DNA of 64,000 bases from Euhalothece natronophila Z-M001. Lineage in GTDB: Bacteria > Cyanobacteriota > Cyanobacteriia > Cyanobacteriales > Rubidibacteraceae. The stretch spans positions 2,728,001 through 2,792,000 of the forward strand of contig NZ_CP042326.1 of assembly GCF_007904085.1 (NCBI RefSeq). Reading direction: 5' to 3'. Both the position numbers and the translations under genes were made by a program. Shown piece by piece: positions 62,006 to 62,175 of the stretch (the first letter of the stretch is position 1; each line of letters starts with the position of its first letter). Under the pieces are notes generated by a model. That model worked only from the letters and a program-made list of their open reading frames with translations. It was not told where the DNA came from and did not search any database.

Positions 62006-62079
62006 GGACGTATAGCTCAGTTGGTTAGAGCGCTACGTTGACATCGTAGAGGTCACTGGTTCGAGTCCAGTTACGTCCA
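62006..62079 (+). tRNA. tRNA-Val (GAC)
   Basis: A 74-nt tRNA: acceptor GGACGTA pairing with TACGTCC, D-loop AGCTCAGTTGGTTAGAGC, anticodon stem-loop CTACGTTGACATCGTAG with GAC, T-loop GGTTCGAGTCC. CCA is not encoded. A transposon-like end begins 30 bp downstream. Confidence 0.96.
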
Positions 62080-62109
62080 CTTTATTTTCTGGATAATTGA
62101 TGTTTTTGT

Positions 62110-62175
62110 TGTACAGTGACAAATTATTTGACATCGGTGACAGATTACTGTCGTCTTAAGGAATTGCTTGTCACT
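62110..62175 (+). mobile_element. orphan Tn7-like / type V-K CAST-like left end
   Basis: The sequence starts TGTACAGTGACAAATTAT at 62110, then has a second GTGACA repeat at 62137-62142 (GGTGACAGATTACTGTC) 21 bp later, and an inverted TGTCAC at 62169-62174. Terminal TGTACA with repeated GTGACA sites is the layout of Tn7-like ends bound by TnsB in cyanobacteria. From memory it matches the start of the Scytonema hofmanni type V-K CAST left end closely. It begins 30 bp after tRNA-Val, a typical CAST site. No tnsB, tnsC, tniQ or cas12k is in the window and no right end was found, so this looks like a relic. Confidence 0.6.

Follow-up and report, generated by a model that had tools for sequence, protein, structure and literature searches.

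The Left End Downstream of tRNA-Val(GAC)

How does a single transposon end come to stand beside a transfer RNA (tRNA) gene with no transposon attached to it? The question is raised by positions 62006 to 62175 of a 64,000-nucleotide stretch of the Euhalothece natronophila Z-M001 chromosome (contig NZ_CP042326.1, positions 2,728,001 to 2,792,000; hereafter the window), for which a sequence-only reading had proposed the scar of a CRISPR-associated transposon (CAST) that homed to tRNA-Val and was later deleted. Very probably, a type V-K CAST was once inserted after tRNA-Val(GAC) and later lost, except for its left end (LE), which survives at 62110-62175. The window corresponds to C1:2728001-2792000 of a 3.52-Mb genome in five contigs (G000; handles in G, C, L and f denote genomes, contigs, loci and families), and the following features were recognised at the site.

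62006-62080, forward strand: tRNA-Val(GAC), the presumed attachment gene, called by ARAGORN (Rfam tRNA, 74.3 bits at 62006-62079).
62110-62175, forward strand: type V-K CAST LE with the terminal TGTACA at 62110-62115, called with the LE profile, model R1 and alignment A3.
62116-62153, forward strand: end repeats 1 and 2 (GTGACAAATTATTTGACATC, GTGACAGATTACTGTCGTC), presumed TnsB sites, conserved in alignments A2 and A3.
62156-62174, forward strand: end repeat 3, degenerate relative to the LE at tRNA-Thr in the same genome (alignment A3).
62176-62219, no strand assigned: 44 bp with no recognised similarity on reading the sequence, possibly eroded CAST DNA.
62220-62402, no strand assigned: dispersed repeat resembling a miniature inverted-repeat transposable element (MITE), with inverted ends TAAGCAGGGTCGTTTCAT.../...ATGAAACAGCCCTAGCTTA, called from matches in the same genome, the ends being read by eye.

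The motifs are as they had been described from the letters alone: TGTACAGTGACAAATTAT begins at 62110, GTGACA occurs at 62116 and again 21 bp further on at 62137, and an inverted TGTCAC lies at 62169-62174. The end follows the tRNA gene on the same strand after 29 bp (counted as 30 bp in the sequence-only reading). TnsB presumably binds these repeats, as is usual for ends of this kind (see also PMC9527255).

Identity of the End

The end was compared with an nhmmer profile built from 12 LEs of Cas12k loci, all in genomes outside its own genus; two of the 12 rows (L029, L031) began at a TGTACA that lies upstream of what is probably the true end. The window LE scored 52.1 bits (E = 6.9e-14), and the best of 20 dinucleotide-shuffled windows scored 7.9 bits. 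With model R1, which consists of 14 LEs including two from the same genus and in which L031 was corrected and L029 omitted, the score was 56.9 bits (E = 6.3e-15). The window LE also aligns without gaps to the LEs of Cas12k-linked elements (alignments A2 and A3), which bears out the CAST-like character that had been read from its motifs.

A BLAST search of 62080-62250 against the same genome returned 13 matches, namely the query itself, ten matches in the separate dispersed repeat and two further copies of the end, one 84% identical over 63 bp at C1:707587 and the other 85% identical over 55 bp at C1:2286098. Both copies lie directly 3' of tRNA genes, tRNA-Thr(GGT) (16 bp) and tRNA-Val(TAC) (8 bp), respectively. 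The ends that resemble the window LE most are Cas12k-linked and occur in this genome, in its genus and in family f13. No match to the exact 21-base LE string was found in viral contigs. In the copy after tRNA-Val(TAC) (L011:19097-19162, reverse strand; G000:C1:2286097-2286162), the terminal TGTACA has mutated to TTTAAA and the inner repeats are kept.

Absence of the Rest of the Element

Whole-genome family searches gave single matches for cas12k, Mu-transpos_C (tnsB) and tniQ, each away from the window, and none of these genes was found at the window site. A right end facing the window LE from downstream was found neither by a genome pattern search (10 matches) nor with the 12-LE profile over the next 40 kb; elsewhere in the genome, a right end exists beside tnsB, at C1:963475-963492. 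Sequence resembling the trans-activating CRISPR RNA (tracrRNA) is likewise absent from the site and was found in the genome only at the tRNA-Thr locus. Since cas12k, Mu-transpos_C and tniQ lie elsewhere and no facing end was found, the LE stands alone, and because there are no CAST genes at the site it is a relic and not a CAST. When compared with type V-K CASTs as described in PMC9938897 and PMC11406308, the genome is alike in possessing cas12k, tnsB, tnsC, tniQ, CRISPR repeats and a MerR gene by cas12k, whereas the window site has 66 bp of recognisable LE, and guide, genes and right end were not found there.

The MITE-like repeat starts 44 bp beyond the end of the LE match, and 39 of the 46 matches that the site gave in its own genome fall inside this repeat. 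Rfam searches at the gathering threshold on the window and on L009, L103 and L102 returned tRNAs only.

The Same tRNA Gene in Relatives

The tRNA-Val(GAC) locus was compared in four genomes of the same genus (G012, G132, G063, G082) and three of the same family (G040, G116, G099); the genus has a fifth other genome, G145, in which the gene was not located. The LE is absent after tRNA-Val(GAC) in all seven relatives, where the LE profile reached at most 5.1 bits and other DNA follows the gene. The window LE is lineage-specific, which answers the refuting case named in the sequence-only reading, a sequence conserved at this place in relatives. In five of the seven the gene preceding tRNA-Val(GAC) has kept its position, G082 and G116 being the exceptions; the small gene at 62447-62680, which follows the relic and has no Pfam match, sits elsewhere in eight relatives.

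Left Ends across Genomes and Alternative Explanations

Among 148 genomes of the order, model R1 gave matches (E ≤ 0.001, strict filters) in 76, although some weak ones, e.g., that of G012 at 3.6e-4, may be due to chance. A tRNA ends at most 60 bp upstream in 24 of the 30 LE loci that were fetched, and in 13 of the 19 that lie outside the model. An LE at tRNA-Val(GAC) is also found in L027, L061, L135, L150 and L152, all of other genomes. Lone LEs stand 6-8 bp past tRNA-Val(TAC) (G000, L011), tRNA-Ala(CGC) (G132, L121) and tRNA-Val(CAC) (G040, L122), and a profile search of the stretches examined found no right end near them; the G040 contig stops about 140 bp past the LE start, and emptiness there is unproven. 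These ends resemble the window LE in following a tRNA with no right end found, and differ from it in their tRNAs and in their decay. The 3.5-Mb genome under study has LEs at three tRNA genes and one cas12k, and from lone LEs of this kind one can trace the sites to which RNA-guided transposons have homed.

Ends without an element recur at tRNAs in the family (G000 twice, G132, G040), which could mean that a lone LE is retained by selection, as a protective scar whose TnsB-bound end keeps further CASTs off tRNA-Val. Type V-K CASTs seem to have such target immunity, according to PMC11406308, and the tRNA-Val(TAC) copy has kept its inner repeats despite its altered terminus. This explanation is nevertheless improbable. 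The third repeat of the window LE is degenerate, and plain survivorship suffices for the recurrence, because the LE served as bait in the search and an essential tRNA bars deletions; survival of the LE is then expected without selection.

In the same 148 genomes, cas12k scored above the cut-off in 35 and gave any match in 49 (a scan of genome contigs with Cas12k gave six loci). No cas12k match was found in 34 of the 76 LE-bearing genomes, 18 of which have an LE at E ≤ 1e-8. These counts would suit an end derived from a Cas12k-free Tn7-like relative that reached the tRNA by another selector, e.g., a TnsD/TniQ protein, and tRNA targeting by protein is described for type I-B2 and I-D CASTs in PMC11406308. 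However, the loss of cas12k explains the 34 genomes equally well, the ends that match the window LE best are Cas12k-linked, and the genome yielded no more than a single tniQ and a single tnsB. Such an origin is considered highly unlikely.

Just as little credit is given to a miniature non-autonomous CAST, still movable in trans, of which the LE would be one end and whose partner end would lie nearby, too degenerate to be seen. A 404-bp mini-CAST is known from the same genus (G145, described below), but neither the pattern search nor the profile revealed a facing end at the window site, no tracrRNA-like guide is found there, and the MITE-like repeat follows within 44 bp. Lastly, an accidental resemblance to a transposon end, as an AT-rich spacer and a short, palindromic TGTACA might suggest, is refuted by a profile score far above the shuffled windows (52.1 bits against at most 7.9 bits) and by the presence of three ends in one genome, each just after a tRNA.

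Probable Insertion and Loss of the CAST

PMC9938897 and PMC11406308 describe how Cas12k, together with a truncated repeat and a 17-nt anchor spacer, recognises a tRNA gene, and how insertion places the left end of a type V-K CAST nearest to the tRNA, 46-82 nt past a GTN protospacer adjacent motif (PAM). In the most probable account, Cas12k and a short homing guide would have led the element to the tRNA-Val(GAC) gene, where TnsB, TnsC and TniQ would have inserted it at this distance from a GTN PAM with its left end tRNA-proximal. The rest would later have been lost by deletion or rearrangement, and the MITE-like repeat now stands 44 bp beyond the LE match. It is the guidance by Cas12k and the removal of the rest that we infer here. 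The candidate PAMs are as follows.

62037-62061, forward strand: GTT at 62037, GTA at 62046, GTC at 62052 and GTT at 62059, from a script listing of GTN in the tRNA gene.

Several observations limit this account or weigh against it. The GTA at 62046-62048 had been put forward as the PAM; its distance of 61 bp to the LE was right, but it is one of four fitting PAMs, the others lying at 70 bp (GTT), 55 bp (GTC) and 48 bp (GTT). Since all four fall within 46-82 nt, the PAM does not discriminate. The GTT-CGAGTCC protospacer of tRNA-Val(GAC) is used by L027, L031 and L135 at 61-62 bp; in the window it would sit at 48 bp, with the GTA at 61 bp. A CRISPR RNA-like spacer was found for tRNA-Thr, but a guide for tRNA-Val(GAC) in the GTT-CGAG form, the one of the four forms that was searched, gave no match in the genome at up to three mismatches. 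Without a right end at the site no target-site duplication is available, and no strain was found with an intact element at this place. An apparently complete 17.8-kb CAST at tRNA-Phe of G082 (L129:3208, L103:10526) is without a matching 5-bp duplication as well (AATGT, GGTAG). Six of the 30 LE loci have no tRNA within 60 bp, which indicates that not every LE marks tRNA homing. The loss of the remaining element by deletion was concluded with no intermediate observed; the proposed scar at tRNA-Val is upheld in the identity of the LE, its standing alone and its restriction to this lineage, and the deletion is carried only by inference.

CAST Machinery Elsewhere in the Chromosome

The genes expected of a type V-K CAST are present away from the window, as cas12k, tnsB, tnsC and a broken tniQ were all found. 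Inward from its LE at L009:1588, the tRNA-Thr(GGT) locus holds a guide, CRISPR repeats, a tracrRNA-like copy, cas12k and a MerR gene, in the following arrangement.

L009, about 1789-2035, reverse strand: homing guide (spacer, truncated repeat and tracrRNA copy).
L009:2147-2333: three CRISPR repeats.
L009:2657-2780: second tracrRNA-like copy, 89% identical to 1974-2097.
L009:2845-4710: full-length cas12k (NF038191, 968 bits).
L009:4778-5215, divergent: MerR gene, which corresponds by position to cvkR (PMC9938897).

The end of this CAST resembles the window LE in sequence and in its position after a tRNA. Unlike the site in the window, the locus has retained its guide, CRISPR repeats, cas12k and MerR gene; the tnsBC-tniQ side lies apart from it. 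The resident spacer matches tRNA-Thr past a GTG PAM, 46 bp ahead of the tRNA-Thr LE. Some 250 kb from cas12k, at C1:960.6-963.1 kb, lie tnsB and tnsC as open frames, and the right end mentioned above adjoins tnsB. The first residues of tniQ (L016:12980-15602, G000:C1) follow tnsC, and the remainder resumes past an insertion of about 2 kb that carries two IS630-like transposase frames. As tniQ is interrupted, guided movement of the resident CAST may now be impossible.

The tRNA-Thr LE (C1:707587) and the right end (C1:963492) face each other across 256 kb. A single 256-kb element between them was considered and rejected, since the flanking 5-mers differ (GTAGG and TGAAG). In none of the five relatives examined is tRNA-Thr followed by the LE or, within 1.5 kb, by the GH15-like gene flanking the right end.

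The Fused Homing Guide

The 200 nt before the homing spacer were read in 25 loci, i.e., 24 of the 36 Cas12k loci and L102; the other 12 Cas12k loci were left out, as they had no tRNA in the stretch or, in the case of L061, no spacer match. In six of the 25 (those of the genome under study, G082, G024, G083, G013 and G145) a tracrRNA is joined directly, by way of a hairpin, to the truncated repeat with its spacer, and in 19 the guide was judged by eye not to be fused. Among 15 LE loci that were also read, six are fused, five of them new (a second G013 locus, G133, G015, G041 and G117); two have the array form (L144, L149) and seven are without a clear homing guide. The fused guide is found in 11 loci of 10 genomes in total (alignment A4), including L009:1789-2035 (reverse strand), L103:10082-10328 and L102:1399-1645 (reverse strand).

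Over the 11 loci, the joining hairpin has standard pairs in 96.1% of the cells against a shuffled mean of 81.0%, and five of its eight pairs change on both sides. Its covariation was 0.393 against 0.154 (standard deviation 0.037), a value that none of 500 shuffles reached, with the limits that the rows are related and that the helix was picked from the first row. Sliding the hairpin partner by 1-3 columns left pairing at 57.1% at most. The number of pair types was reached by 38 of the 500 shuffles, and single folds were modest (z from −1.42 to −2.45), the hairpin being seen in L009 and L102 and not in L131.

Judged by its sequence, the fused homing guide of this and some related lineages looks like a naturally occurring single-guide RNA for Cas12k, and some CASTs may already use a fused guide like those that laboratories build for Cas12k. 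No description of a tracrRNA-fused Cas12k homing guide, or of lone CAST ends as a class, was found in the literature; the preprint 10.1101/2021.02.06.429022 on truncated V-K homing guides was not covered by this search, and no claim of being unpublished is made. A wider proposal, to which we attach about as much belief as doubt, is that the CAST lineage of the scar would home with such a single-guide RNA, in which a hairpin links an extra tracrRNA to the truncated repeat and tRNA spacer, with array guides using the second tracrRNA, and that the 404-bp mini-CAST would in that case be a parasite that bears a guide and is mobilised in trans by complete CASTs. Both the fused guide and the guide-only mini-element can be tested directly in existing CAST assays and are of specialist interest beyond the scar itself.

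Guide-Only and Decayed Elements

The mini-CAST (L102:1280-1683; G145:C9) comprises an LE (58.9 bits), a fused guide and a right end (25.4 bits) within 404 bp and holds no protein gene. Its flanking 5-mers do not match, and there is no tRNA in its 6 kb; the G145 assembly is 85% complete and consists of 420 contigs. The spacer, with tRNA-Thr(CGT) as its putative target, gave no match with at most one mismatch in the Z-M001 genome, G145 not being searched, and among 170 loci it matched only the mini-CAST itself (five overlapping copies of its locus). The comparison suggests that guide-only mini-elements exist.

A decayed CAST was seen in G082 (L120:9460-19051; G082:C1:1269459-1279050), where an LE with no tRNA beside it precedes a 1018-aa frame as well as methylase and specificity genes. 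The 1018-aa frame combines MerR and type I restriction domains, and a tnsB fragment lies 9.4 kb on.
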